Shown one piece after another: positions 7,695-30,374 of a DNA stretch of 45,075 nt (position 1 is the first letter of the stretch; every line of letters starts with the position of its first letter). The stretch covers positions 1 to 45,075 of the forward strand of contig JAATEV010000105.1 of NCBI GenBank assembly GCA_015655585.1, given 5' to 3'. The position numbers and the translations under genes were made by a program. The DNA comes from Terriglobales bacterium (GTDB lineage: Bacteria; Acidobacteriota; Terriglobia; Terriglobales; Acidobacteriaceae). The notes under the pieces are model-generated. The model did not search any database and had not been told where the DNA came from. It was given only the letters and a program-made list of their open reading frames with translations.

Positions 7695-9311
7695 ATGGCT
7701 ACAGCCACGCTTGCCAATCCGGCGAAAGCTGCTTCGCGGCCTTTGATTAACCCGTGGGTGGTTGCGCTGACGGTGACGCTGGCGACGTTCATGGAACTGC
7801 TGGATACGTCGATCGCGAATGTTTCGCTGCCTTATATTGCGGGCGGGCTGGGGCGGTCGTTCGACGAGGTGACGTGGATTCTGACGACGTATCTGGTGGC
7901 GAACGCGGTGGTGCTGCCGATGAGCGCGTGGTTGTCTCGCGTGTTCGGCAGGAAGAACTACTACATGGCCTGCGTGGCTCTGTTCACGATTACTTCGTTC
8001 TTCTGCGGGATTGCGCCGAGCCTTGGGATCATGCTGCTGGCGCGGGTGTTGCAGGGCGTGGGTGGCGGTGGGTTGGCTCCGGTGGAGCAGGCGATTCTTG
8101 TCGATACGTTTCCTCCAGCGAAGCGGGCTTCCGCGTTTGCGCTGTATACGGTGGCGATTGTTACGGCTCCAGCGATTGGGCCGGTGCTGGGCGGATGGAT
8201 TACGGACAATTACAACTGGCGCTGGGTGTTTCTGATCAATATCCCGATTGGCGCGCTGTCGCTGTTTCTTACGAACCGGTTCGTGCATGATCCTCCGGCG
8301 TATGCGGCGGAGCGTGAGACGGTGCGGGATGCGAAGGGCAAGCTGAAGGTGGATGGGATCGGGATTGCGCTGATCGGGCTGGGTTCGGCGGCTCTGGAGG
8401 TGCTGCTGGATCGTGGGCAGATCGACGACTGGTTCGGATCGAGCTTTATTACTTGGATGTTTGTGATTGGTATCGCCTGCCTGACTACGGCGGTGTTCTG
8501 GGAGTTGCGGCATCCTGATCCGGTGATCGATTTTCATTTGTTGAAGGTGAGGAACTTCGGCATCTCTTGCGTCTTCTACTTCACGTTCGGGTTCGGGTTG
8601 TTCGCTTCGACGACGATGATTCCGCAGATATTGCAGTCGCTGTATGGGTATCGCGCGATCGATGCGGGACTGGTGCTTGGGCCGGGAGCGCTGGTGATTA
8701 CGATGCTGGCTCCGGTGGGAGCGCAACTGGTGCAGCGGGGGATCATTCATCCGCGGATTCTGCTGTTTGGCGCGCTGATGACGGTGGGGATCTCGTTTAT
8801 CCACTACAGCCACTTCAACCTGGATACGGACTACAACCACTATGCGTGGGCGAGGGCGTTGCAGGGGCTGGGGTATGCGTTCTTCTTTGTGCCGCTGTCG
8901 GTGATCTCTTACTCGCAGCTTAGTCCGGCGCAGAATAATAAGGCTTCGTCGCTGACGAACTTCTTTCGCAATTGGGGTGGGAGCTTCGGGATTGCGTTTG
9001 TGACTACGGTGTCGGAGCGGCGGCAGAACTTTCACCAGGCGAGGGTTGGGAACAATCTGTCGGGCTCTTCGCATTATCTGCAACAGGCGGTGAACCAGAC
9101 GGCGGCTTATTTGCAGGCGCATGGGTTCTCTCATGCAGATGCTTTGAGCGCGGCTTATGCGCGGTATTACAACCAGCTTGAGGCGCAGACTCGGCTGCTG
9201 GCGTTTATGGACTGCTTTTATGTGCTGGGTGTGATTACGTTGATCGCGGCGCCGGTGGTTTTGTTGACGAAGAACTTCAAAGTGGGTGGGAAGGCTCCGG
9301 CGGGACATTGA
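7695..9311 (+). CDS. DHA2 family MFS efflux transporter (EmrB/QacA type)
   Basis: 538 residues, the usual size for a 14-helix DHA2 drug:H+ antiporter of the inner membrane. Seen: the first helix with motif D1-like LDTSIANVSLPYIAGGL, motif A-type SRVFGRKNYYMA, motif B ARVLQGVGGGGLAPVEQA, and motif C AIGPVLGGWI. A GAGGGG ribosome binding site lies about 12 bases before the ATG. The partner genes emrA and an outer-membrane tolC-like gene are not next to it. Control by the adjacent TetR repressor is likely. Substrate unknown; the family exports lipophilic drugs and dyes. Confidence 0.93.
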   Translation: MATATLANPAKAASRPLINPWVVALTVTLATFMELLDTSIANVSLPYIAGGLGRSFDEVTWILTTYLVANAVVLPMSAWLSRVFGRKNYYMACVALFTITSFFCGIAPSLGIMLLARVLQGVGGGGLAPVEQAILVDTFPPAKRASAFALYTVAIVTAPAIGPVLGGWITDNYNWRWVFLINIPIGALSLFLTNRFVHDPPAYAAERETVRDAKGKLKVDGIGIALIGLGSAALEVLLDRGQIDDWFGSSFITWMFVIGIACLTTAVFWELRHPDPVIDFHLLKVRNFGISCVFYFTFGFGLFASTTMIPQILQSLYGYRAIDAGLVLGPGALVITMLAPVGAQLVQRGIIHPRILLFGALMTVGISFIHYSHFNLDTDYNHYAWARALQGLGYAFFFVPLSVISYSQLSPAQNNKASSLTNFFRNWGGSFGIAFVTTVSERRQNFHQARVGNNLSGSSHYLQQAVNQTAAYLQAHGFSHADALSAAYARYYNQLEAQTRLLAFMDCFYVLGVITLIAAPVVLLTKNFKVGGKAPAGH

Positions 9312-9401
9312 TCGTTGTGCGAAAGATGCTCACTGTATCCGTAAAAGCTGTTGTATCCTCTAGGCTCAATACAAAAACAATTTGAAACGAGGAACTTGCG
9401 G

Positions 9402-10991
9402 ATGCGTGCACAGGTATGCCGACGAATTTCTGCCCTTTTGCTGTCTCTGGTGCCGGTGGTGGGGAGCGCTGCGGAGCTGCCTAAGATTGCCAAGGAAAAT
9501 GGGCGGTTCGTCTTTCGCGTAGATGGGAAGCCTTACCTGGTGCTGGGGGTGCAGATCAATAATTCGAGCGCGTGGCCTGCGACGATGCCGCAGGTTTGGC
9601 CTCTGCTGGATTCGCTGCCGATCAATACGGTGGAGGCTCCGGTGTACTGGGAGCAGATTGAGCCTAGACCGGGCGAGTTCGATTTCTCCAGCGTGGACAT
9701 GCTGGTGACGCAGGCTCGGGAGCACAAGGTGCGGTTGGACCTGCTGTGGTTCGGCACGTGGAAGAACGGGCAGATGCACTATGCGCCGGAGTGGGTGAAG
9801 AGCGATGCGAAGAAGTATCCGCGGGTGATGAATGAGGCGGGCGAGCCGGTGGATGTGCTGACGGCGAACTCGGAGACGAATTTGAAGGCGGACATTGCGG
9901 CGTATGTGGCGCTGATGAAGCATCTGAAGCAGATTGACGGCGAGCAGCATACAGTGATCCTGATGCAGGTGGAAAACGAACCGGGCTCGGTTGGCGCGGT
10001 ACGGGACCATGGGCCGGAGGCGGAGGCCGCATTTACGAAGGCTGTTCCTGCGGAGGTGGTTCGGGCTGTGGGCAAGCAGCCGGGAAGCTGGCGTCAGGTC
10101 TTCGGGCTGGATGCGGATGAGGCGTTTCAGGCTTACTCGATTGCGCGGTACATCGACCAGGTGGCTGCGGCGGGAAGGCAGGTGATGGACCTGCCTTCGT
10201 ATGTGAATGTGTGGCAGCGGTATCCATTTGGAACGCGGCGGCCGGGGTTCGATTATCCGAGCGGCGGGGCTACTTCAAACGTGCTGGACATCTGGAAGGC
10301 GGTGGCGCACTCGATTGATCTTTATGCGCCGGATACTTACTCGGACGATCCGGGGATGCAGGAGAAGATCGTTGAGAACTATGATCGGCCGGACAATCCG
10401 CTGTGGATCTGCGAGACGGGGCATACGCCGGAGTATGCTCTGCTGTTCTACAGAGTGCTGGGGCGGGGCGGGTTTGGCGCTTCGTCGTTCGGGATTGATT
10501 TGACGAATTGGAATCTGCAATCGGGCAAGCAGGTGGACTGGATGCGGGACAGCTTTGCGCCGTTGCTGCCGATGGCGGGGGAGCTGGCTGCTTGGAATGC
10601 GGCAGGCAAGCTGAAGACCTCTGTCGAGGAGCCGGGGAAGACGAAGCAGGTGTTGGCGTTTGGACGCTGGCAGATTGTGGTGAGCTACGGAGGGTACAAG
10701 GCGGGGGAGCGGTCGGAGCAGCCGGCGGGCACGGAGAAGCACGATGGGCGGCTGATTGCGGCGCAGGTGGGGCCGGATGAGTTCGTGGTGACGGGAATTG
10801 ATGCGAGCATTGCGATGCAGTTGGACAAGGCGCAGGGCGGCGGGCATGGGCAGATTCTGAGGGTGGAGGAGGGGAGCTATAAGAATGGGACGTGGGTTCC
10901 GCTGCGGATATGGAACGGCGACCAGACGGACCATGGGATGCGGTTCCGGTATAACCCTTTGGTTTTGAAGATCAAGATGGGGAGTTATTAG
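9402..10991 (+). CDS. Secreted GH35/GH42-like beta-galactosidase with DUF5597-type C-terminus
   Basis: 529 residues from the ATG at 9402, preceded by GAAACGAGGAAC; an in-frame TTG at 9351 is less likely. A signal peptide (MRAQVCRRISALLLSLVPVVGSAA) sends it out of the cytoplasm. The (beta/alpha)8 barrel is of the clan A glycosidase type: the acid/base Glu is probably E193 in QVENEPGS and the nucleophile E338 in WICETGH. The C-terminal beta domain (VSYGGYKAG...VVTGIDA...) resembles the DUF5597 domain seen in bacterial galactosidases of this group. It would release galactose from plant or microbial polysaccharides in the periplasm. It stands between the efflux pump and ftsZ with no functional link to division. 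Confidence 0.85.
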   Translation: MRAQVCRRISALLLSLVPVVGSAAELPKIAKENGRFVFRVDGKPYLVLGVQINNSSAWPATMPQVWPLLDSLPINTVEAPVYWEQIEPRPGEFDFSSVDMLVTQAREHKVRLDLLWFGTWKNGQMHYAPEWVKSDAKKYPRVMNEAGEPVDVLTANSETNLKADIAAYVALMKHLKQIDGEQHTVILMQVENEPGSVGAVRDHGPEAEAAFTKAVPAEVVRAVGKQPGSWRQVFGLDADEAFQAYSIARYIDQVAAAGRQVMDLPSYVNVWQRYPFGTRRPGFDYPSGGATSNVLDIWKAVAHSIDLYAPDTYSDDPGMQEKIVENYDRPDNPLWICETGHTPEYALLFYRVLGRGGFGASSFGIDLTNWNLQSGKQVDWMRDSFAPLLPMAGELAAWNAAGKLKTSVEEPGKTKQVLAFGRWQIVVSYGGYKAGERSEQPAGTEKHDGRLIAAQVGPDEFVVTGIDASIAMQLDKAQGGGHGQILRVEEGSYKNGTWVPLRIWNGDQTDHGMRFRYNPLVLKIKMGSY

Positions 10992-16009: not shown

Positions 16010-17137
16010 ATGTCTAGCCCTGTATACGTCACGCTGTTTTTTCTTATGACTCAGAGCCTGTGTTATGTGGCTCAGGCGCAAAATTCCATGAGCACTCAAC
16101 CCGAAGCCACTCGAGTAATCGTGGCCAATTCTAGCTCTGGAAACTCATCTACTATTGCAATTCCTCCTGCAACCTCGTGGACGGGGACTATAGGATTCGG
16201 AGGCCCAAAGGCAGACACTTCTAAGATGGATGATGTGTCTTCTTGGGTGAACCTGCAAAGTGATCTGAACGGGCTAATGAGGGCGAAGACTCCGTGGCAT
16301 ATAGTGATCGCCTATGAACAATTCGATGAAGATGGCGACAAGGTTCATAGTGGAACATATGAGGAGTTCTGGGTCGAGCCAAAGAAGTTCAAGATCAGTT
16401 ATAAAGCGGACGATTTGAATCAAACAGACTATGCTACTGGTCAGGCCTTATATCGTTTAGGAGACCAACAGTGGCCTAATCGTGCCCAGACGCAGATTCC
16501 AAAAGAAGTAATCAATCCCTTCTTCTATGCGGCAAGCTTACGAGGGGTTCACGTTCGTAACATGTCTGAGAATTTCGGAGAGCACTCATTCAACTGTGCA
16601 GTGATCGAGAACGGGCCAGGTAGAATTAGCAGCCCAACCCAATATTGCTTTGATCCTAACGGATCTGAACTTCGCTACACTAGAGGCTCTGGCTGGTACC
16701 AGACGACTTATAACGACATAACATCCTTCTCGGGACGATTTATCGCTAATGCGATAGATGTGTACGATGGCGGTAAACCCTATCTTAAACTGCGTGTGCA
16801 GCGCCTAGAAACAATACCGAGCGTTGCTGATGCAGATTTCACCCCGCCATTAGACGCGAAGAATTTGAGTGGTCAAAGATTGTCGGGTGTCACTCCGATC
16901 CCTCTTCAGCAGAGTCTTCCTGAATGGCCGGACTCTCTGAGGCAGCAGCACTTTTCGGTGGTGGTTGAGATCGTAATCGGAAAAGATGGACATGTTCTTA
17001 GCGCTCATGCAGTTTCCGGTCCGCAGAATGCCTTCAAATCTGCTGAAGCGACAGCTCGCAAGTGGACGTTTCAGCCATATACCGTTTTGGATGAACCGAC
17101 TGAGGTAAGCACAAAGATTGTGCTTAGCAATAACTGA
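16010..17137 (+). CDS. Secreted protein with C-terminal TonB-like domain
   Basis: 375 residues. A signal peptide (MSSPVYVTLFFLMTQSLCYVAQA) starts it. The central part (about 60-270) has no family I recognise. The last 85 residues (LPEWPDSLRQQHFSVVVEIVIGKDGHVLSAHAVSGP...AEATARKWTFQPYTVLDEP...VSTKIVL) match the TonB C-terminal fold found in many acidobacterial secreted proteins. There is no second membrane helix, so it is probably a periplasmic protein rather than a true ExbB/D-driven TonB. The gene is much richer in A and T than its neighbours and lacks their G-over-C bias, and it separates nnr from tsaE, all pointing to late insertion. Confidence 0.75.
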   Translation: MSSPVYVTLFFLMTQSLCYVAQAQNSMSTQPEATRVIVANSSSGNSSTIAIPPATSWTGTIGFGGPKADTSKMDDVSSWVNLQSDLNGLMRAKTPWHIVIAYEQFDEDGDKVHSGTYEEFWVEPKKFKISYKADDLNQTDYATGQALYRLGDQQWPNRAQTQIPKEVINPFFYAASLRGVHVRNMSENFGEHSFNCAVIENGPGRISSPTQYCFDPNGSELRYTRGSGWYQTTYNDITSFSGRFIANAIDVYDGGKPYLKLRVQRLETIPSVADADFTPPLDAKNLSGQRLSGVTPIPLQQSLPEWPDSLRQQHFSVVVEIVIGKDGHVLSAHAVSGPQNAFKSAEATARKWTFQPYTVLDEPTEVSTKIVLSNN

Positions 17138-20989: not shown

Positions 20990-21184
20990 CGGAAAAGATG
21001 ATGTCTTGCCGGACGGGCGGCACTTCGTGCGGTGCTGAGCTTTGCGTGGTCCTCCCGTTGGTCGGGATGATAAAGCCGAGCAACGCGAGGCCCCATGCAG
21101 ATGATCCTGCCCAGTCCGGTATACAAGTCACGAAGTGACCGCTCGCCGCGCAGGAGGCTCGTCCGGCAGGACATTTCTTTTCCG
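20990..21184. mobile_element. MITE-like element with terminal inverted repeats
   Basis: A 195-base element whose ends are inverted repeats of about 28 bases with a few mismatches: the left starts CGGAAAAGATGATGTCTTGC and the right, read on the minus strand, CGGAAAAGAAATGTCCTGCC, both followed by GGACG and GC. It has no gene. Inside lie a GTCAC-TTC-GTGAC hairpin and a CCCG...CGGG hairpin. A partial second copy lies at 10999-11100 upstream of ftsZ. This copy supplies the last 18 codons and the stop of the membrane protein gene on the minus strand and adds a false extension to ispA. Confidence 0.8.
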
Positions 21185-22816
21185 CATTGCGATTAGTAAG
21201 AGGATCAGTGAAAAGCCGGAGAGTGTGTTGCCGATGGTTTGGTCGAGCGTGTGGGCGTAGCGGATCGCGATGGTTGAGGTTCCGGCGGGGATGGGGATGG
21301 CGATGAGGCCGTCGTCGCGCTGCTGGCGCGTGGAGATGGGGGTCTGGTTGAGGGTGATGCGCCAGGCGGGGTAGTCGCGGAGGTTGAGGATGAGGGTCTG
21401 GGGGATGAGTGAGTGGATGCTGAGGTTGGGCGGTGCGGGCGCGGGTGTGGAGTTGGCGGGGGCTTTCGAGTTGGGGTCGGTGGAGAGCCACCATGCGGGA
21501 TTGTTGGGGGCCAGGGAGTCGTTGTCGGCGGTGGTGGGGGTGTACTCGTCGGTGGGCTCGGTGCCTTGATGGGCGCGGAAGGCGGTTAGGCGGGAGGCGA
21601 CGGTGTCTTCGGGGTCGCAGGACTGATGGAAGACGGTGTAGGCGGGCCAGGTGAGGGTGGCGGCTATCGCGATGGTGGTGGGGATGAGGGTTCTTGGTTT
21701 TAGGGTGAGGTTTGCGAGGGCTAGTGCTGCGGCCAGGGCCATGAGGGCGGCGAGGATGGCCAGCAGACGCCAGGGAAATTGCAGGAAGGCCAGCTCGGGG
21801 AGGTGGTTCCAGAGCGGGGCGGTGAGGGGGGTTAGAGACAGGGCTATTGCGATGGTGAGGATGGCTATGGAGAGGTTTATTTTTTTGCGGGCTGTGATGA
21901 GGGCCAGCGTGGTGGCGGCTATGAGGATGAGGGCGATGATGGAGGCGGTGTGGAGGACTTGATCGTGGGGGACGTCGCCGGTGTGGTGGAAGAGGAAGTT
22001 GTCGGCGATGCGCATGTTGGGGATGACGGCCATGGCGATCTGGACGAAGCGGCGTTGCCAGGCGGCGGGGACGATGTAGAAGGAGGCGAGGCCGAGGCCG
22101 AGAGTGGTGCCGAGGAGGATGTTCGTGGCTAGGCGGAATTTCGGATTCGCGCTTTGCGCGAATGCCCATGTCCCAGAAGCGGGACATGGGGCACCCGGAT
22201 TCTGGATGGGGGCGATTATGCGGATGAGGGTTAGAAGGGCCAGGGCGTAGCAGCTCATGACGGCGGCGGGGGCGTTGGTCAGCCATAAGAGCGCTATGGG
22301 GATGGCTACTTTGGGGATGGAGATTTTTTCGGCCAGCGCGGCTTTTAGGAGGAGGGGAATCCAGACGGCGGCGAGTAGCTCGGCGTAGGCGGTGCGCTCG
22401 TAGGCGGTGAAGAGGGTGTAGGGGTTGACGGTGTAGAGGGGGGCGGCGAGGAGAGCGGCAGTGGGGGAGGCGAAGGCGCGGGCTAGGCGGTGGAGGGTGA
22501 GTCCGGCGGCGGTGAGGACGAGCCAGGTGTAAGCGATGGGAGTCCATGTCCAGGGGAGGAAGAGGCCGAGGATGGCTCCGATGGTCCAGGAGAGCGGTGG
22601 GTAGAAGACGAAGCGAGGTTCACCGGCGTTGTAGGCGGGGGTGTAGGCCCAGTGGGGATGCAGGTTGCCGTGGGTGAACTGGCGGGCGGCTTCGAGCCAG
22701 TTGAGGACGTGGAAGTCGAAGTCGTGGCCGCAGGAACAGCCGTTGAGTAGGAGAGGAAGGACGGCGATAAGCGCGGTGAGGGGGATGAGGAGGTAGGGAA
22801 GTCGTTCGCGCTGCAT
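21128..22816 (-). CDS. Polytopic membrane protein, GT-C-like (possible PTPS-related membrane family)
   Basis: 562 residues with about ten or more hydrophobic helices and a periplasmic-type C-terminal beta region (TLILNLRDYPAWRITLNQTPISTRQQRDDG). The N-terminal loop after helix 1 holds HDFDFHVLNWLEAARQFTHGN, in the position of the acidic motif of GT-C glycosyltransferases, followed by RFVFYPPLSWTIGAIL. This resembles the membrane family labelled PTPS-related (PF10131), probably lipid-linked sugar transferases. Two oddities: residues about 206-225 are encoded by double-hairpin repeat copy 3, and the last 18 residues and the stop come from the MITE-like element. Confidence 0.75.
   Translation of the reverse strand: MQRERLPYLLIPLTALIAVLPLLLNGCSCGHDFDFHVLNWLEAARQFTHGNLHPHWAYTPAYNAGEPRFVFYPPLSWTIGAILGLFLPWTWTPIAYTWLVLTAAGLTLHRLARAFASPTAALLAAPLYTVNPYTLFTAYERTAYAELLAAVWIPLLLKAALAEKISIPKVAIPIALLWLTNAPAAVMSCYALALLTLIRIIAPIQNPGAPCPASGTWAFAQSANPKFRLATNILLGTTLGLGLASFYIVPAAWQRRFVQIAMAVIPNMRIADNFLFHHTGDVPHDQVLHTASIIALILIAATTLALITARKKINLSIAILTIAIALSLTPLTAPLWNHLPELAFLQFPWRLLAILAALMALAAALALANLTLKPRTLIPTTIAIAATLTWPAYTVFHQSCDPEDTVASRLTAFRAHQGTEPTDEYTPTTADNDSLAPNNPAWWLSTDPNSKAPANSTPAPAPPNLSIHSLIPQTLILNLRDYPAWRITLNQTPISTRQQRDDGLIAIPIPAGTSTIAIRYAHTLDQTIGNTLSGFSLILLLIAMRKRNVLPDEPPARRAVTS
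22143..22197 (+). repeat. Double-hairpin repeat, copy 3, inside a coding sequence
   Basis: It has the same first hairpin as copies 1 and 2 (22146-22162), then GCCCATGTCCC, AGAAGC and the complement GGGACATGGGGC, ending ACCCG. The copy is read through in frame by the minus-strand membrane protein gene and encodes the loop segment GAPCPASGTWAFAQSANP. Confidence 0.8.
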
Positions 22817-23267: not shown

Positions 23268-26200
23268 TTAGAAAATCACTCTAAAAGAAAATTGGACAGA
23301 TCTCGGTCCTCCTTGTTGATAAAGAGAACCTTCCGGGCCGAAGCTTTGATTCAGCATTTTGGTTGCTTGTCCGAATAGAGCATGGCTCAGAGACGGATCG
23401 ATATAGCCAAAGTTTGGGTGATTCAGTACATTGAACGCCTCAGCCTGAAACTGTGTGGAAAAGCGACCGTAGATAGGCATCTCTCGCCTTAGAGCAATAT
23501 TGGCCTGCACAGCATTGAAGCCACGGACAAAGTTCCGAGGCGCGTTTCCCTGGCTTGTTCCATCGGGGAGACTGAAGGCTGGATTGATTGCATCCGGCCC
23601 TCCGTTGAGAATCCGGCCGCCTGCATATTCTGCGCCATATAGATAGAGCGGACGATTCGGGATGAGGTTCACGCCATTGTAGTATCTATCTCCTGTCTCG
23701 GGATCAGAGAACAGATTTCCGAAGAGAGTCACAGGAAAAGCAGTTCTTGCGATCAGTCTTCCATCGACTCCCCAACTTCCGAGAACATATTTAAAGAACG
23801 GGCTGTTGCCGGGTTTGGGCAGGTCCCACGAAATTGCTGCCTCCAGATTGTGACGTACATCGAGGTCGGAGTTTCCATGGGTTAGTGGATAGAGAGGATC
23901 AGTCGATCCGTAATCCAGTGAATGAGCCCACGTGTAGGAGGAGAGCGCCTGTATACCCCGTGATATAGATCGCTGCAACTTTACTTGCAGCGCCTGATAG
24001 TTGGATGTCACGCCATTCGGAAAAAAGGAGACATCGCCGAAACTGTGATTGAGGGAGCTGACGTCTCTGCGTTGCTCCTGTAGAAGTTGGTCTCCATGGG
24101 CTCCGAGGTAGGAGACCGTTAAAGCCTGATTTCTGCCAAGCGCCTTTTCAATGCCGATATTCCATTGCAGGCTGTAAGGAAGAGGGAGATGGGAAGGAAA
24201 CGCATACACCAGTGAATGGGTGTTCGGAGGCATCGGCGTAGCGGGGAAGTTAAGTTGAGATGGAGTGATGGGCAGGGGAGCATCTTTGATATAGGACGTC
24301 GTTGTAAAACCCATTGCGTTGAACGCAGCCAGGGCCGGACGGTTTGTTGTATCGAAGAAGACTCCAGCGCCCACACGTAAGATCATCTCTCTGGCTGTTC
24401 GATCGCTGATCATCCAGGCCGCGCCAAAGCGTGGTGCCAGATTGAACCATCCGGTATGCCAGAGCGGAGTTCCTCTAGGAGCCAGTCTTAAGGTTGCAGG
24501 TGCATCTATATCGCCGATTGCAGTATATGCATCCATTCCTCGGCGTCCCTTAGGGGGTTGGTTAACATCCCAACGAAGGCCAAGGGACAAGGTGAGTCTT
24601 TTGGATACTCGCCACTCATCCTGGGCAAAGGCGGAAAACTGGTTGAGAACCGGGCTGGCGGGTTCGCTCTTTGTGATGACGATGTCCGATGCGGCATTAT
24701 CTACCATCGACTGTCGGCTAAAAAAATCCGCTTCGACGGACAAAGCGGCGGGATGGAACGCCGAGGCAATATACCTTTGATCTATTCCGAACTTTAAATA
24801 ATGATTCGAGATTTCACGGGTAAAGCTATCTCTAAGGTTCCACTCATAAAGCGAGCTGTTGATGTTGTCCCAAATGGCTTCACTATCGCCGACACTTGGA
24901 ATATGGATGTAAATATCTGCACGTGCCGAGTTACTGGGGTCGGGGATTCCGATAGAGCTCGCGAGACTATATTGACCGCAGAGATTAGACTGTAAAAAAA
25001 ACGTACATGCATGGGAGTTGCTTCTGACAAATCCGAGGCGGAGCTCGTTGCTAGTTTTCGTCGATAACTGACTGGCAACTCCTAAGGTGAGTGTTCGGGT
25101 GTGCAGAATATTCTGTGTCAAAGAAGAAAGTTGTTGGGTCTGACTGTGGCTAGGAGTATCTCCATATCGAAAGAATATGGAAAGTCTTGGGGAGATGGCG
25201 TGATCCAGCCGAATGCTCATGGAATCGACACGAGCCGGCAGAGAATAACCGGGAACGATAACCGCGCTCAGTCCGCCCTGTTCTCTCGATGCATCGTAGA
25301 AATTGCCGCGCCGGAAGAGCCCCAGCACATTTTGGAGAGGTGCTGGAGCTTCGTTAACAACGGCAATCGATGGCACGTAGTAGATAGTAGGTGGCGTCGG
25401 CTGAGTTAGAAGAAGGCCCTCATAAGAAGCAAATATAAACGTCTTATTATGTCCATAATAGGTTCCTGGAAAAATAAATGGGGTACCGAAGGTACCTCCA
25501 AAATCGTTCTGGTTGAAACGTGGTTGGTTCGGCGCATTTTTAGGGAAGAGGGTGGCAGTAAACCAGTCGTTACCATTTATGACATAGTCCCTCCAGTAGG
25601 TATAGAGACTGCCATGTATGGCGTTAGTTCCGGAACGCGTTAGAAAGGTGAACTGTCCTCCCGGCGTTCGTCCATACTCCGCTGAATAGGTGGAGCTCAG
25701 GACGCGAAACTCCTGGAGAGCATCGATCGACACCAGACTCTGGGTTGTTCCGAGAGCTGTTCCGCCACTACTTGATCCGGCGATGGTGAATCTGGAAGAA
25801 GCATTGCCGAGACCGGAATCTATATTGGCAGAGACACCGTCGACAAAAAACGAGTTCGATTCGGTTCGCTGCCCGTTGACGCTGAAGTCTCCCTGTGAGC
25901 CGGAGGCCTGCCCCGCCGCCTGTGGGCTTTGGGTAACGACGCCGGGCGTCATAGAGATCAAGTCCTGAAAGCTTCTTCCGTTCAAAGGAATATTCGCAAC
26001 GAATTTTCTATCGACGATTGTGCTGACAGATGCGTCGGAAGTATTGAGAGTAAGGCCACTGGCGTTAACGTTCACCGACTCCGTTACCAAACCGATCTTC
26101 AGGCGGATCAGCAGATTCTTTGTATCGCCTATGTTGAGGGCGATTCCATTCAGTTGCGTAGTGGCAAATCCTTTGCGTTCTATCTGAAGGGTGTAGGTTC

Positions 26201-26441
26201 CGGGGATTACGCCGGGCAAAATGAATCTGCCGTCGCTGCTGGTTGTGGAGTCGTTTTCCGCTCCGCTCTGCCCATTGATGAGTTTGACAGTCGCATCTCC
26301 AACCCGGGCACCTGAAGTATCCTGCACGATGCCTATAACGTTGGCGGTGCTGACCTGCGCCAGGACAGTTCTCCACGGAAAGAGAAGGAAGAAGAGACAA
26401 CTCAGGCGAAACAATAAACTGGCTGTAATCGTGACCTTCAT
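23268..26441 (-). CDS. Oar-like TonB-dependent receptor
   Basis: 1057 residues from the ATG at 26441; a TTG at 26447 would overlap the upstream stop by four bases. Layout: signal peptide (about 1-29), a carboxypeptidase-regulatory-like beta domain (about 33-113, IVQDTSGARVGDATVKLIN...DGRFILPGVIPGTYTLQIERKGF), a plug with VVTQSPQAAGQASGSQGDFSVNGQR-type sequence and FFVDGVSANID, then a 22-strand-type barrel ending in aromatic VQFSFRVIF. It should import a bulky substrate across the outer membrane with TonB energy; which substrate is unknown. It begins 2 bases after the stop of the sigma/anti-sigma fusion gene, so the two are co-transcribed and probably translationally coupled. Confidence 0.93.
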   Translation of the reverse strand: MKVTITASLLFRLSCLFFLLFPWRTVLAQVSTANVIGIVQDTSGARVGDATVKLINGQSGAENDSTTSSDGRFILPGVIPGTYTLQIERKGFATTQLNGIALNIGDTKNLLIRLKIGLVTESVNVNASGLTLNTSDASVSTIVDRKFVANIPLNGRSFQDLISMTPGVVTQSPQAAGQASGSQGDFSVNGQRTESNSFFVDGVSANIDSGLGNASSRFTIAGSSSGGTALGTTQSLVSIDALQEFRVLSSTYSAEYGRTPGGQFTFLTRSGTNAIHGSLYTYWRDYVINGNDWFTATLFPKNAPNQPRFNQNDFGGTFGTPFIFPGTYYGHNKTFIFASYEGLLLTQPTPPTIYYVPSIAVVNEAPAPLQNVLGLFRRGNFYDASREQGGLSAVIVPGYSLPARVDSMSIRLDHAISPRLSIFFRYGDTPSHSQTQQLSSLTQNILHTRTLTLGVASQLSTKTSNELRLGFVRSNSHACTFFLQSNLCGQYSLASSIGIPDPSNSARADIYIHIPSVGDSEAIWDNINSSLYEWNLRDSFTREISNHYLKFGIDQRYIASAFHPAALSVEADFFSRQSMVDNAASDIVITKSEPASPVLNQFSAFAQDEWRVSKRLTLSLGLRWDVNQPPKGRRGMDAYTAIGDIDAPATLRLAPRGTPLWHTGWFNLAPRFGAAWMISDRTAREMILRVGAGVFFDTTNRPALAAFNAMGFTTTSYIKDAPLPITPSQLNFPATPMPPNTHSLVYAFPSHLPLPYSLQWNIGIEKALGRNQALTVSYLGAHGDQLLQEQRRDVSSLNHSFGDVSFFPNGVTSNYQALQVKLQRSISRGIQALSSYTWAHSLDYGSTDPLYPLTHGNSDLDVRHNLEAAISWDLPKPGNSPFFKYVLGSWGVDGRLIARTAFPVTLFGNLFSDPETGDRYYNGVNLIPNRPLYLYGAEYAGGRILNGGPDAINPAFSLPDGTSQGNAPRNFVRGFNAVQANIALRREMPIYGRFSTQFQAEAFNVLNHPNFGYIDPSLSHALFGQATKMLNQSFGPEGSLYQQGGPRSVQFSFRVIF

Positions 26442-26443
26442 CT

Positions 26444-29400
26444 TCAATGTGATCGCTCGGGAATCCTCTTGTTGTCCTCTGCGCTCTGGGGGCTCGTTAC
26501 CTTCGATCTGGCCGAGCTGTTGAGCTCGACGGCGAAACGTGTGATCTCTTCAGTCTGATGCAAGGGGATGGCCTTTATCGTGGTTTCCAGCAGTGTGTCG
26601 GTTTGTTCTGCGCCTGAAGTGTTTGACGCGAACAGTCTGCCGATGTCGCTGTTCAGATTCTGCGTTCGATGCAAAAGTTGGCTGGCTGCTTGATTGAATT
26701 GCACGGGACTTTCTATTTGGATCGACGGCTCCCCAGCATCAGGCGAATCATAGCTCTGCGTCGAAACCTCGGCCAATTGCGCGTGTAGTGTACGAAGTTG
26801 CTCTTCCAGGGCTGTTGCATGTCGATTCAGCATTTCCGTCCATTGCTGTTGTGAGGAAGCGCCGACTGATTTGAGCTCCGTCGCAGAAAGTGCACTGCCA
26901 AGTCGATCCAGAGCATACGCGTGTTGGAGTGCCCGTTGGGCGTGCTGGAGTGCATTCTGGGAATACTGCTTGATTGCGGAATCCAGCCGATCCCCGGAGA
27001 TATCTTTCGCCTGGAAGTGCCTGCGAAGTATCGCATCCATCTTTGGTTTAGTTTGGTCTACGTTGTAGGTTCTTGCATTTTCTGAAGCTGTTTTCCGGGC
27101 GCCGGAGACATGAATGTCATTCGGTGAGATGAGCTTGAGATCAAGAAGCTGATGATCCTCCAAAATATCCAGATGAGAGACGATCTGTTGCTTGAGCGAA
27201 CTATCTAAAATGGTCCCCGAGACGCGAATGTGGCCGTCGGATGTCCTGACGACCTCGATTGGCTCACCGGTGTCAGCGCCGAGGTCATTGAGCTGGTGCA
27301 ACACGGCAATATGTAACTTGGCAAGTTGCAAACCTGTTCCAGTTGTCTGTACAAAGCGATCCTGGGGCACGGAATTACGTGGACTGTGAGCTGAATACTC
27401 ATATTCTGGATCGAAGACCGCATCGGCTACAGAGGCAGATGGTTTGCGTTCGTACTCAGACTGAACGAAGCGAAGCTCGCGATAACCGGAATCGGCTCGG
27501 ACACGCAGGATCAGGCTGGTCGGCAGGAGATGATGGTCGAGAACTAGCGTTGCCGATAGCAACTGTGGATGGTTGGCGACTGGAGCGGTGGTCGTGAGCT
27601 CATAGCCATCTCCCGCAGCATGGGCTTGTGCGGTTTTACCTGCCAACATACTGAAGGCATGTACCGAGAGATCCTGATCCCAGAGCTCGTCTATTGGAAT
27701 GGAACGATGCGCACCAGACGTATTTTTATTTTTCCGCGTTCCGTATGAGATATGCTCTCCATTCTTATTTCGCCACTTTGTCGCGATGACGCGATGCTGA
27801 GAATCATAGAGGCGGCGTACATATCTACTATTGTCGCCATCTTTCCAGAGATCGATGGTTCCTTGTTGGAGAATCTTTCCATCGGCAGAGACCTCTTCAA
27901 GCCGAATGATCTGGTGCTCAGTTTGCCCTTGGAGATTTGTCGTTTCAATCATGACGGACTGATTCAGAATTTTCCCGGCATCGATTGGTGCGTTTGCATG
28001 GCGATAAGCGAGGTAGCTGGTGGCGGAGATAAAGATCGTCAATGCGAGCGCCCAGGCCATCATGGAAGATGGAACCAGAGGACGAAGGAAATGACCGATC
28101 ACAGCGATCCATGACGCAGATGAACTGGTCTGGTGTCGTACAGTCAACGATGGAGTGGGGGCATTGGAGTTGGATCCCCAAACCGTGGCAGAATCTTCCA
28201 TGTCTTCGAATGCCAGTGCTGGGTCGAAGTAGGTGACTTGACTATTCAGGCCCAAACCGTCAAAGGTCAGATTCAACTCCAACCAGCGAAGGTCGCTGAG
28301 TGATATGCGTTGCGTTCGTGTGTGCGGCCCATCAGGAGGATGATCGCCAATGGAGAGTAAGGCCAGACGAATGTCCTGTTCGCTGAAGACTTCGATGAAC
28401 TCTGCGCTCTCCGGATGCTCGATTCGTGCGGAGAGCGTACTTTGCTCTGCTTGTATGTCATGAAGAGCAATAATCTTTCCGTTAACGGCAATCGATAAGG
28501 TTCTGGGACGATGTTCATTTACCTTATTCCAGCGTCTGCGAACCGATCTCAACAGGTACTCCTGTTTCATCTCACTCGACTCTGAAAGGTCGGGCTTACT
28601 GTTATCTGAAGAGAAATCGGCCCCATCCAACGGCTCTCGATCTTTGAGTGTGGGGCGGCGGAAGTGCCGGTCGATACTGGCCAGGCACCATTCGCAACTC
28701 ACAATGTGCGAGAGGAGAGAGCAGTCTGTTGGCTTGGGTATTGAGGAACGATATTGCGCCAACAACTCTTCTTCAGGAAGACACTCTGTAAACCGAGCGC
28801 GGAGGATAGTCTCGCGAAGTTCCTTAAATAGCTCCGGGGTTGACAATAAATTCCAGGATGATGCAGGGATTGGCGGAAGATCGCGGTTCAGGATGCGAAG
28901 CTTGCCGGGATTCTCAAGATGCGACTTCACCTCGCTACGAGCGGTCTTGAGCTTGTTGTAGATGGCGGCGATTGGGAGTAGGGCAAGCTCTGCAATCTCT
29001 CGCCGGGAATAGTCATGAAAGAAGTGAAGAATGAAGTAGCTGGCGGTCTTGGACGACTCTTTTCGCCAAACCGCGTAACTACAGATGCTGCGAAGATCAT
29101 TCTGTCGTTGCAGAAGATCTCCCGGATGGCTGGCCGCGAGTGCAAATTCAAACGAGTCGAACTCCGCAACGCTGATGAAGTGCTGCGCCTCACGGGAAGA
29201 ACGGGCTAGTCCGGACAGATAGATGTGGCGCAAACAGGTGTAGAGATAGCCGTCGAGATTCGCAACGTCCCGGAGGTCTGGTTTCGTCAAAGTGAAGTAA
29301 AGGCAAAACTCCTGGACGATATCCTCGGCCCTGGCCACATCGCCGCGAGTCAGTATCGCGCCCCATTTCAGCAGTTGACGATAGTAGCTGGCAAGAAGGT

Positions 29401-29455
29401 GCTCAGGCTGGGTCGCGTGCGATGGGGTGCGCCATTTGGGGTTATGTTGCTCCAT
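26444..29455 (-). CDS. ECF sigma factor fused to zinc anti-sigma motif, membrane helix and periplasmic region
   Basis: 1003 residues. Residues about 20-90 form sigma region 2 (AEDIVQEFCLYF, 43-54, then NLDGYLYTCLRHIYL); about 120-180 form region 4 with the HTH YSRREIAELALLPIAAIYNKLKTARSEVK split around 149-177. Residues 245-260 hold a ZAS-type anti-sigma motif, H250-xxx-C254-xx-C257. A cytoplasmic beta-like domain follows (about 318-410), then one membrane helix (about 466-484) and a predicted periplasmic part of about 520 residues: a beta region (about 500-780) and a helical, coiled-coil-like region (about 805-900). An AGGAG site lies 4 bases before the ATG. By analogy with FecI/FecR/FecA, it probably senses receptor or envelope state and controls transcription, but how the sigma part could act while membrane-bound (possibly after proteolysis) is inference. 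I know no named family with this whole layout. Confidence 0.8.
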   Translation of the reverse strand: MEQHNPKWRTPSHATQPEHLLASYYRQLLKWGAILTRGDVARAEDIVQEFCLYFTLTKPDLRDVANLDGYLYTCLRHIYLSGLARSSREAQHFISVAEFDSFEFALAASHPGDLLQRQNDLRSICSYAVWRKESSKTASYFILHFFHDYSRREIAELALLPIAAIYNKLKTARSEVKSHLENPGKLRILNRDLPPIPASSWNLLSTPELFKELRETILRARFTECLPEEELLAQYRSSIPKPTDCSLLSHIVSCEWCLASIDRHFRRPTLKDREPLDGADFSSDNSKPDLSESSEMKQEYLLRSVRRRWNKVNEHRPRTLSIAVNGKIIALHDIQAEQSTLSARIEHPESAEFIEVFSEQDIRLALLSIGDHPPDGPHTRTQRISLSDLRWLELNLTFDGLGLNSQVTYFDPALAFEDMEDSATVWGSNSNAPTPSLTVRHQTSSSASWIAVIGHFLRPLVPSSMMAWALALTIFISATSYLAYRHANAPIDAGKILNQSVMIETTNLQGQTEHQIIRLEEVSADGKILQQGTIDLWKDGDNSRYVRRLYDSQHRVIATKWRNKNGEHISYGTRKNKNTSGAHRSIPIDELWDQDLSVHAFSMLAGKTAQAHAAGDGYELTTTAPVANHPQLLSATLVLDHHLLPTSLILRVRADSGYRELRFVQSEYERKPSASVADAVFDPEYEYSAHSPRNSVPQDRFVQTTGTGLQLAKLHIAVLHQLNDLGADTGEPIEVVRTSDGHIRVSGTILDSSLKQQIVSHLDILEDHQLLDLKLISPNDIHVSGARKTASENARTYNVDQTKPKMDAILRRHFQAKDISGDRLDSAIKQYSQNALQHAQRALQHAYALDRLGSALSATELKSVGASSQQQWTEMLNRHATALEEQLRTLHAQLAEVSTQSYDSPDAGEPSIQIESPVQFNQAASQLLHRTQNLNSDIGRLFASNTSGAEQTDTLLETTIKAIPLHQTEEITRFAVELNSSARSKVTSPQSAEDNKRIPERSH

Positions 29456-29483
29456 TTACTCCTAAAGAGAAGATTGCTGTCGG

Positions 29484-29588
29484 AATCTACCCTCACGCTT
29501 AATATTTATTTTTTACGCTTTCGGTTTCATCCCGGAGAGCATCGACAAAATGGTTCTTGAATATTTTTGTGGCCCGTCAGGGTAGATT
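29484..29588. promoter_or_regulatory. Divergent control region with an inverted shared leader motif
   Basis: The motif CGTSAGGGTAGATT (S is G or C) occurs on the minus strand at 29484-29497, 28 bases before the ATG of the sigma fusion gene, and on the plus strand at 29575-29588, 27 bases before the ATG at 29616 of the beta-barrel gene. CTCTTTA and AGTAATG/AGTAAATG also recur in both leaders. The near-symmetry suggests a promoter or operator element shared by the two genes; CGTC is a common minus-10 core of ECF promoters, but I cannot assign a clear minus-35. Confidence 0.6.
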
Positions 29589-29615
29589 TGGCGGGTGAGT
29601 TCCTCTTTATCAGTA

Positions 29616-30374
29616 ATGGTATTTCAGGAGCGTCACTTGTCACTATCGCAGTTAGTCTTCCGTCTTTCTTTCATCAGATTTTTGCCAGTAGCGGTATGCC
29701 TACTGGCAATGATTGGACCTCAACCGACATTGGCGCAGGTAGTGGATTCACAGATCGCCAAAAAGAAGTTCATACCGCAGACAGATCTTTCAGTGGGAGC
29801 TTTCGGTGAATTGACGGCCTTGCGCATGCCGATTACGGCTACACCCCGCTTCGATGGCGTGGAGGTCATGCAGACGACACAGGGCACCTCGCCGTCCGCC
29901 GGTCTTCTCGTGACATTTCACCAGTCTCTCAAGCCGTGGCTTGGGTACAATATAAATTTTGGATATAGCCGCTTTACCGAAAACTACTCCCTAGGCAATA
30001 CTTTCCTCGCGAGTTTTTCCCAACTATCCATCGGAACCAACATGTATGAATTGAGCATCGCGCCAGTCATTCAGGGACCGAAGATAAAACATATCAGCAC
30101 ATTCGCACAGGCAGGTGGAAGCGGCTTGTGGTTTCTTCCGACGCAAACTGTTTCGCCCTACAACGAACAGGTTCGCGCCGCAATGCTCTTCGGGGTCGGG
30201 TTCAATTATAAGCTCACGGATCACCTGGGAATGAGGGCAGAGTATCGCGGACTGTTCTACAAGAACCCGGATTTTGCATACCGCTCAGGGCAGGCTCCAA
30301 TGTCGAGACTCTTTACTGTGACCAATGAGCCTACCGTGAGTCTCTTCTACACCTTTGGCCGAGTAAAGAAATAA
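29616..30374 (+). CDS. Outer-membrane beta-barrel protein
   Basis: 252 residues from the ATG at 29616; a GTG at 29595 would add seven residues but lies only 6 bases after the shared leader motif. After a long N-terminal export signal (LSFIRFLPVAVCLLAMIGPQPTLAQ), the chain shows alternating strands typical of an eight-stranded OmpA/OmpX-like barrel: WLGYNINFGYSRF, YELSIAPVIQG, STFAQAGGSGLWF, RAAMLFGVGFNYKL, LGMRAEYRGLFYK, and the end TVSLFYTFGRVKK. No peptidoglycan-binding domain follows. It is divergent from the sigma fusion/receptor operon and shares its leader motif, so it is probably part of the same regulon. Confidence 0.8.
   Translation: MVFQERHLSLSQLVFRLSFIRFLPVAVCLLAMIGPQPTLAQVVDSQIAKKKFIPQTDLSVGAFGELTALRMPITATPRFDGVEVMQTTQGTSPSAGLLVTFHQSLKPWLGYNINFGYSRFTENYSLGNTFLASFSQLSIGTNMYELSIAPVIQGPKIKHISTFAQAGGSGLWFLPTQTVSPYNEQVRAAMLFGVGFNYKLTDHLGMRAEYRGLFYKNPDFAYRSGQAPMSRLFTVTNEPTVSLFYTFGRVKK

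Follow-up and report, generated by a model that had tools for sequence, protein, structure and literature searches.

How can a sigma factor act when it is built into the same chain as its anti-sigma factor and tied to a membrane? The question is raised by one gene of the window, by which we mean the whole 45,075-nucleotide (nt) stretch analysed here, from a Terriglobales bacterium of the phylum Acidobacteriota (contig JAATEV010000105.1). On the minus strand, from 29455 down to 26444, a single open reading frame (ORF) without an internal stop encodes 1003 amino acids (aa). The original prediction, drawn from the sequence alone, had placed in this frame regions 2 and 4 of an extracytoplasmic function (ECF) sigma factor, a zinc anti-sigma (ZAS) motif, one membrane helix and a periplasmic part of about 520 residues, followed 2 nt later by a TonB-dependent receptor (TBDR) gene. 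Both the layout and the position of the receptor gene are confirmed by our analysis, and we conclude that the protein is probably a self-regulating, membrane-tethered sigma/anti-sigma hybrid, a regulator of cell-surface signalling in one polypeptide.

Architecture of the fusion protein

The gene, its parts and the receptor gene are as follows, with the basis of each assignment in brackets.

26444 to 29455, minus strand: gene that fuses an ECF sigma, a ZAS anti-sigma, a membrane helix and a periplasmic sensor in 1003 aa (ORF, Pfam, NCBIfam, homologues)
29171 to 29404, minus strand: sigma region 2, residues 18-95 (weak Pfam match; family profile to PDB ECF sigma factors, 6.6e-8)
28910 to 29080, minus strand: sigma region 4, helix-turn-helix, residues 126-182 (weak Pfam match; TIGR02985 at 19-180)
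28670 to 28840, minus strand: ZAS segment, residues 206-262, C225-x24-H250-x3-C254-x2-C257 (conserved ligand columns; weak 3hug_B match)
28211 to 28531, minus strand: conserved cytosolic domain without a name, residues 309-415 (alignment conservation; also in the stand-alone anti-sigma of locus L104)
28010 to 28078, minus strand: membrane helix, about residues 460-482 (hydropathy)
27386 to 28003, minus strand: first periplasmic domain, residues 485-690, judged beta-rich by eye (split anti-sigmas have a homologous periplasmic half)
27116 to 27343, minus strand: BON-like periplasmic domain, residues 705-780 (weak Pfam matches in family members)
26501 to 27103, minus strand: C-terminal helical or coiled-coil periplasmic part, residues 785-985 (original prediction; weak coiled-coil matches)
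23268 to 26441, minus strand: TBDR with CarboxypepD_reg, Plug and OMP_b-brl_4, no STN found (Pfam)

The TBDR ORF, read from its ATG, begins 2 nt past the fusion stop, and an alternative TTG start at 26447 would give a 4-nt overlap with the fusion gene.

The sigma part is recognised through its family. In the window protein itself, Pfam places Sigma70_r2 at residues 23-88 (E 0.0027) and r4_2 at 141-174 (E 0.0073), and NCBIfam places TIGR02985, whose members we take to be FecI-like, at 19-180 (6e-11, the best E-value among NCBIfam models for sigma). A profile of 37 family sequences, compared with the PDB, returns ECF sigma factors first (5uxx at 6.6e-8, 1h3l at 7.3e-8), through region 2. At E≤0.05, Sigma70_r2 is found in 23 of the 37 members and r4_2 in 15, and the fusion of locus L110 exceeds the Pfam cut-off for Sigma70_r2. 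Judged by this family profile, the N-terminal part is an ECF-type sigma with regions 2 and 4 only. No other parts of the protein are as well conserved as regions 2 and 4, the ZAS and the 309-415 domain, which makes a degenerate sigma unlikely.

ZAS domains have a fourth cysteine or histidine ligand upstream of the HxxxCxxC motif. In the window protein this motif, at residues 250-257, reads HIVSCEWC, and it occurs once in each of the 120 proteins listed (of 371 matches), the window protein included. H250, C254 and C257 are invariant in all 75 aligned sequences, and the C225 column holds C in 71, H in three and F in one, that is, C or H in 74 of 75. Together with Hx3Cx2C, described as the signature of ZAS domains (PMC7406223), this upstream ligand column indicates that the complete set of ZAS ligands is present in the fusion family, which would be predicted to bind zinc. 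A Pfam scan of 26 fusion ZAS segments at E≤1 does not list zf-HC2. The best PDB match of the ZAS profile is weak (3hug_B, E 0.046), a chain that we take to be the anti-sigma RslA.

Between the ZAS and the membrane lies the unnamed 309-415 domain, with the motifs H315-x-P317 and E355-x3-E359-Q360; H315, P317, Q360 and Y409 are invariant over a set of 30 loci. Against the PDB it gives nothing significant, the only match being a ribosomal chain at E 0.34, and among the Pfam families listed for 37 members at E≤0.05 there is no name for it. Among the 120 listed proteins, hydropathy shows a single peak in 77, a pair in 42 and no peak in the remaining one; in the examples inspected, the second peak lies near residue 243, within the ZAS.

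Beyond the helix, the first periplasmic domain has no PDB match and only weak Pfam matches in single members. For the piece that follows, three of 23 members match YscD BON-like domain 1 (best E 0.0032) and one of 23 matches BON; the window's own residues 705-780 give no Pfam match. FecR is not matched by the window protein at E≤10, nor is it among the 11 families listed for 37 members at E≤0.05, and neither the window protein nor these members have a Pfam match to a carbohydrate-binding domain. Mean pairwise identity over the 30 loci is 37% for sigma region 2, 41.5% for region 4, 36% for the ZAS and 35% for the 309-415 domain, against 22, 27.5 and 19% for the three periplasmic parts. By these comparisons the protein is a conserved cytosolic engine joined to a fast-changing periplasmic sensor.

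A family of fusions in Acidobacteriota

A search for homologues, which the original prediction had proposed as a check, found 371 proteins matching the window protein and 497 matching its profile (E≤0.001; 8000 candidates scored and 120 listed in each case). From two collections we assembled 52 distinct fusion loci (30 and 22), after removal of duplicates on the same contig (L044, L045, L051, L053, L058, L123, L125, L129, L144, L145). The total includes L147 (genome G747), whose operon is broken throughout, with the fusion gene in two pieces and the TBDR in several. Not counted are L054 (a break in the frame of its sigma part), L057 (cut by a contig end), L060 (a sigma fragment), a contig-end piece in genome G560 and L042. 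The last is a relic of a fusion gene (L042 7678-8067 (-), genome G012), 73% identical to window residues 317-435 and apparently decayed. Close loci are here the 15 whose local identity to the window protein reaches 39% or more; the remaining 37 are called far.

Fusions occur in three GTDB families (f1, f30, f79) among 396 genomes of the phylum; within the window's own family, at least 32 of the 398 genomes give a match at E≤1e-30. These counts are lower bounds, with two candidates scored in most genomes. The match in one genome, G463, is a split anti-sigma, and the same genome also has a fusion. When named genomes were searched with the single window protein, no relatives were found; a search of them with the alignment found at least 24 loci, some through the sigma part alone. 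Named carriers include the cultured Edaphobacter aggregans DSM 19364 and Paracidobacterium acidisoli 4G-K13 as well as Granulicella sp. L60 and Silvibacterium bohemicum, joined by bins labelled Acidobacteria gp4, Chloracidobacterium and Pyrinomonadaceae, the last with a broken frame. Among the matches listed, those that cover most of the protein bear Acidobacteriota names, and the others are sigma-only.

Linkage and co-divergence with the receptor

A TBDR gene lies downstream on the same strand in all 52 fusion loci. It is within 150 nt in 49 of them, and the median gap is 22.5 nt; in the other three the gap measures 329, 977 and, in the broken L147, 1454 nt. None of 36 ordinary ECF loci from the same searches has a TBDR within 500 nt (flanks of about 1.5 kb). 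The TBDR Pfam family has 44 matches in the 3.12-Mb window genome, and the probability of chance adjacency is therefore small.

The two partners also diverge together. For 28 fusion-TBDR pairs, a Mantel test gives a correlation of 0.515, with none of 5000 permutations as high. A partial Mantel test on 45 loci separates the two halves of the fusion protein: the periplasmic half correlates with the TBDR at 0.505 given the cytosolic half (0 of 2000 permutations as high), and the cytosolic half with the TBDR at -0.024 given the periplasmic half (1463 of 2000 as high). Seven of the 52 loci with an incomplete or broken TBDR were left out (L047, L056, L134, L140, L147, L148, L149), and L130, whose TBDR is cut at the end of the stretch, was retained. 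On these alignments, TBDR divergence tracks the periplasmic half, not the cytosolic half.

Loci L130 and L132 illustrate this as a swap. Their engine is 46% identical to that of the window, against 29 and 27% to that of L039; their periplasmic half is 14-15% identical to the window's but 37-39% to that of L039, and their TBDR 26-27% and 62-64%, respectively. A sensor and receptor exchanged under a conserved engine suggest a modular rewiring of nutrient sensing in soil bacteria.

A third gene is present in some of the operons. Among nine such genes from relatives scanned with Pfam, four are S9 peptidase-like (L033, L034, L037 and L041, that of L034 just under the cut-off), one is GDPD (L035) and one DUF6528 (L038); the extra genes of L039 and L040 gave no Pfam match, and the tannase-like gene of L036 sits on the opposite strand. 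The S9 peptidase-like and GDPD genes point to peptides and phosphodiesters as candidate substrates. In the window, a membrane protein with a weak YfhO match lies behind the TBDR (21128-22816, minus strand). The gene at 16010-17134 (plus strand) encodes a product whose match to a TonB C-terminal domain falls slightly below the Pfam threshold.

A promoter-like element of the close subfamily

The upstream regions of the close subfamily have GGGTAGATT-N14/15-CTCTTTA in common. In the window this element stands ahead of two divergent genes.

29463 to 29492, minus strand: promoter-like element GGGTAGATT-N14-CTCTTTA, 7 nt ahead of the fusion ATG (upstream comparison; pattern scan)
29580 to 29609, plus strand: divergent copy of GGGTAGATT-N14-CTCTTTA, 6 nt ahead of the barrel-gene ATG (pattern scan)
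29616 to 30374, plus strand: OmpA-like outer-membrane barrel protein, 252 aa, predicted second target (OmpA_membrane 9.6e-4 and OMP_b-brl 0.0035, both under cut-off)

These two exact copies are the only ones in the 3.12-Mb window genome, and 100 shuffles gave no match; a further site with two mismatches lies at 127-156. Among 61 related genomes, exact copies occur in two, the window's and G033, whose three copies mark both of its fusion loci and a barrel gene on another contig (C198). Across the 398 family genomes there are seven exact sites in six genomes, six of them beside a fusion gene; the seventh (G702) has nothing related alongside. At two mismatches or fewer the element is found at the fusion start in 10 of the 15 close loci and none of the 37 far loci, and a full scan at this threshold gives 19 sites in 218 kb of close loci against one in 506 kb of far loci, with none and one in the reversed sequences. 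Because sites with two mismatches scatter over the comparison genomes and with the reversed pattern, only sites with at most one mismatch were used genome-wide. There are 21 of these in all 10 close-subfamily genomes, against one in 10 comparison genomes, and four of the 21 lie away from a fusion locus (G033 C198, G033 C218, G736 C60, G362 C2).

The fusion ATG follows the element by 6-7 nt in the 10 close loci; in L031 the distance is 7 or 8 nt by the spacer chosen, and L046 has an additional ATG 4 nt behind the element. We predict that the fusion mRNA is probably leaderless, because the start codon sits where a -10 element would place position +1. Subfamilies other than the close one must rely on different promoters. 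In L048, L049 and L050 we noticed, ahead of the fusion gene, GGCGTC-like stretches at a possible -10 position, so that each subfamily may have a promoter of its own.

The barrel gene is divergent from the fusion gene in the window, in L124 and, broken, in L031; with the element it is also found on the other contig of G033 and downstream of the TBDR in G705, G703 and G634. Other genes behind the element are varied. The divergent gene of G291 is membrane glycosyltransferase-like by eye, with its ATG 8 nt behind the element, and that of L043 resembles a LysR-type regulator, again by eye. A remote copy in G736 (L153 742-771 (+)) lies 7 nt ahead of a secreted protein that looks Kelch-like; its first residues resemble the start of the G736 fusion protein, as though the promoter had been duplicated along with the start. 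In L105 and L046, too, genes that look like membrane glycosyltransferases by eye are found close to the element. At L154, L155 and the comparison site L156, no convincing gene was found behind the element.

Split relatives and a probable mosaic origin

Eight loci (L097-L103, L150) have separate genes, in the order sigma gene, anti-sigma gene of 588-674 aa, TBDR gene, with gaps before the TBDR of up to 335 nt. HxxxCxxC lies near the N-terminus in seven of the eight anti-sigmas, L102 being without it, and the anti-sigma of L098 exceeds the Pfam cut-off for zf-HC2. The periplasmic halves of split and fused forms (7 and 51 sequences, L147 and L102 excluded) align over 494 columns with an hhalign probability of 100 and E 2.2e-60, and a quick FastTree tree of this half intermixes the two forms. 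The 309-415 domain has no match in any of the eight split anti-sigmas.

It is found instead in L104, where a 458-aa anti-sigma made of a ZAS, the 309-415 domain and a helix stands beside a sigma gene. This type numbers 15 proteins, L104 included, and the named ones are Acidobacteria or Blastocatellia; no TBDR was found across the 17-kb stretch of L104. In this locus (7739-9732 (+), genome G394) the gene of the nameless anti-sigma family lies upstream of the sigma gene that goes with it.

We placed 73 sigma domains in a maximum-likelihood tree. A branch supported at 100/100 there separates 30 fusion sigmas, together with the L104 sigma (itself long-branched and unusual in composition), from the seven other split sigmas and 35 ordinary ECF sigmas (L150 is not in the tree). 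A simple derivation of the fusion from an L097-type operon is thus unsupported. Since the sigma groups with L104 while the periplasmic half matches the L097-type anti-sigmas, the fusion is best seen, on this phylogenetic evidence, as a mosaic in which the engine is L104-like and the sensor L097-like.

A model for regulated release and its rivals

In the model that we favour, the ECF sigma domain would be made inactive, clamped by the neighbouring ZAS and anchored to the inner membrane, and the periplasmic half would sense the state of the partner TBDR. Once the receptor engages its putative substrate, the periplasmic half would change and be cut, a membrane protease such as RseP would then free the cytosolic part, and the ZAS clamp would be removed or opened after the membrane cut. 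The free sigma could then transcribe its own operon (fusion and TBDR, in some loci with a secreted hydrolase) from GGGTAGATT-N14/15-CTCTTTA, which would amount to positive feedback, and the outer-membrane barrel gene from the same element. By analogy with IutY of Pseudomonas putida (ECF243), a sigma/anti-sigma hybrid that works with a TBDR and is activated by Prc and RseP (PMC8999054, PMC5411451), regulated release is the most likely mode of activation. An extra step, by a cytosolic protease or by opening of the zinc site, would be needed here, because the ZAS lies between sigma and membrane and would keep the sigma bound after the cut; a zinc motif may also have a purely structural role in membrane anti-sigmas (PMC7406223). 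Genes of the M50 family were present in four of four genomes checked and equally in 14 of 14 control genomes, and so have little discriminating value. The window genome has two M50 matches, one for each half of the model, on contigs C92 and C88. The one in the window (C88; 44206-44925, minus strand, near the contig end) is the C-terminal part of an RseP-like M50 protease with a PDZ domain, and the N-terminal half of that protease seems to lie on C92.

Several observations weigh against the hybrid reading. The sigma matches of the window protein itself fall under the curated cut-offs of Pfam and NCBIfam, and the ZAS of fused and split forms, although in register, align weakly (hhalign probability 13.5, E 0.002). 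The element is confined to the close subfamily and is absent, at two mismatches or fewer, from five of its 15 loci (L047, L127, L130-L132). Six other barrel genes were checked, and in five of them the long frame does not open with an ATG at 6-7 nt; the start in other intact barrel genes lies about 29-35 nt behind the element, so that the leaderless prediction rests on the fusion genes. Permuted within genomes only, the true pairing of fusion and TBDR ranks 4th of 192 and is not singled out, and since periplasmic half and TBDR gene are adjacent DNA, a single recombination could yield part of their correlation. Lastly, an STN domain was found in none of nine TBDRs scanned (six fusion partners and three split partners), although STN has two matches elsewhere in the window genome. 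Signalling TBDRs are defined by such an extra N-terminal signalling domain (PMC5411451, PMC11637429), and contact with the sensor is therefore not of the textbook type. If the receptor signals, another part than STN would do so, with CarboxypepD_reg or the plug as candidates.

These last points also favour a different account, in which the TBDR is merely a client gene of the regulon and does not signal, the input being a periplasmic ligand or else acting on the ZAS (zinc, redox). The missing STN would fit it, adjacency alone could tie the histories of periplasmic half and TBDR, and soluble zinc anti-sigmas are often redox sensors (PMC7406223). We nevertheless regard a client receptor as improbable, given that TBDR divergence tracks the periplasmic half rather than the cytosolic half and that a TBDR lies downstream in all eight split operons as well.

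It is also conceivable that GGGTAGATT-N14-CTCTTTA is read by another sigma, or by a repressor or activator. The pairing of the fusion sigma with the element is predicted from sequence, and the third of close loci that lack it would be easier to understand on this account. Yet spacing and distance to the ATG suit a -35/-10 pair whose +1 falls on the fusion start codon or beside it, and the exact sites in the 398 genomes lie, with a single exception, beside a fusion gene, which makes a different reader doubtful indeed.

We think it about equally doubtful that the sigma is active while tethered, a signal refolding it and RNA polymerase and promoter coming to the membrane without any cleavage. The uninterrupted chain agrees with this, and the conserved 309-415 domain between ZAS and membrane could relay a conformational signal. 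Against it stands the activation of IutY by Prc/RseP cleavage, IutY being in 2022 the only such fusion characterised experimentally (PMC8999054, PMC5411451), as does the presence of M50 genes, near-universal though they are. Finally, although relatives have split sigma / anti-sigma pairs, a misassembly or frame accident that joined two such genes here is excluded for practical purposes by the 371 and 497 homologous proteins and by 51 fusion frames besides the one broken, from many genomes and conserved across the junction; a 2096-aa open frame in G001 that suggested a three-protein fusion is really a 991-aa fusion followed by a separate TBDR ORF.

Known systems and implications

The original prediction knew of no named family with the complete layout, which was too strong: IutY and ECF52 are named precedents, and known sigma/anti-sigma hybrids comprise IutY, some ECF36, ECF48, ECF52 and ECF53 (PMC8999054). 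IutY is a 41-kDa protein with a FecR-like periplasmic part (PMC9249621). ECF52, represented by SCO4117 of Streptomyces coelicolor, combines a sigma, a zinc finger, a membrane region and an extracytoplasmic domain; proteolytic release has been proposed for it, and it is described as restricted to Actinobacteria, with a proline-rich stretch and a carbohydrate-binding domain (PMC5826349, PMC8999054). In the open-access literature we recognised no report of the present fusion family, of a ZAS-type hybrid beside a TBDR or of signalling by a TBDR without STN. A Solibacter genome paper counts ECF and TBDR paralogues, and in its available text the fusion is not mentioned (PMC3174227). The concept of a sigma/anti-sigma hybrid is thus already known; the fusion family, the ZAS with a TBDR, the STN-less receptor and the private promoter look new.

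A broader proposal, to which we give somewhat less than an even chance, is that Oar-like CarboxypepD_reg TBDRs without STN are signal transducers in Acidobacteriota, acting through a BON-like and helical sensor that belongs either to a separate ZAS anti-sigma or to a sigma-fused one. This would be a second route, independent of FecR and STN, whose sensor-receptor modules are swapped as a unit, and in the close subfamily it would serve few transcription units through a private promoter with a leaderless fusion start. A receptor family in which STN was found in none of the nine members scanned is tied to a sigma regulator at every one of the 52 loci, so that proteins now classed as mere transporters may be signal receptors too. 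This question is open to direct test, because the regulator is a single chain, the predicted regulon is small and the promoter-like element is defined.

Set beside known systems, the fusion resembles the stand-alone ZAS operons (L097-L103, L150) in its homologous periplasmic half and in a gene order with the TBDR last, and differs from them in that their genes are separate, lack a 309-415 match and carry a sigma from another branch of the tree (seven placed). With FecI/FecR/FecA it has in common an ECF sigma, to which the TIGR02985 match points, a membrane anti-sigma and a TBDR; unlike there, sigma and anti-sigma are fused, a ZAS replaces the FecR-type anti-sigma and no STN was found on the receptor. 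In ECF52, ECF48 and ECF53, as in the present family, a single chain bears a large extracytoplasmic part along with sigma, zinc finger and membrane region, but the present family belongs to Acidobacteriota, has other periplasmic domains and has a TBDR downstream. Compared with IutY/IutA, the present protein is longer (about 1000 aa), has a ZAS and an extra cytosolic domain ahead of the helix, lacks a FecR match and is partnered by a TBDR without a detected STN; the two systems are alike in placing sigma and anti-sigma in one membrane-spanning chain, in having a TBDR as partner and in the predicted positive control of the TBDR gene.

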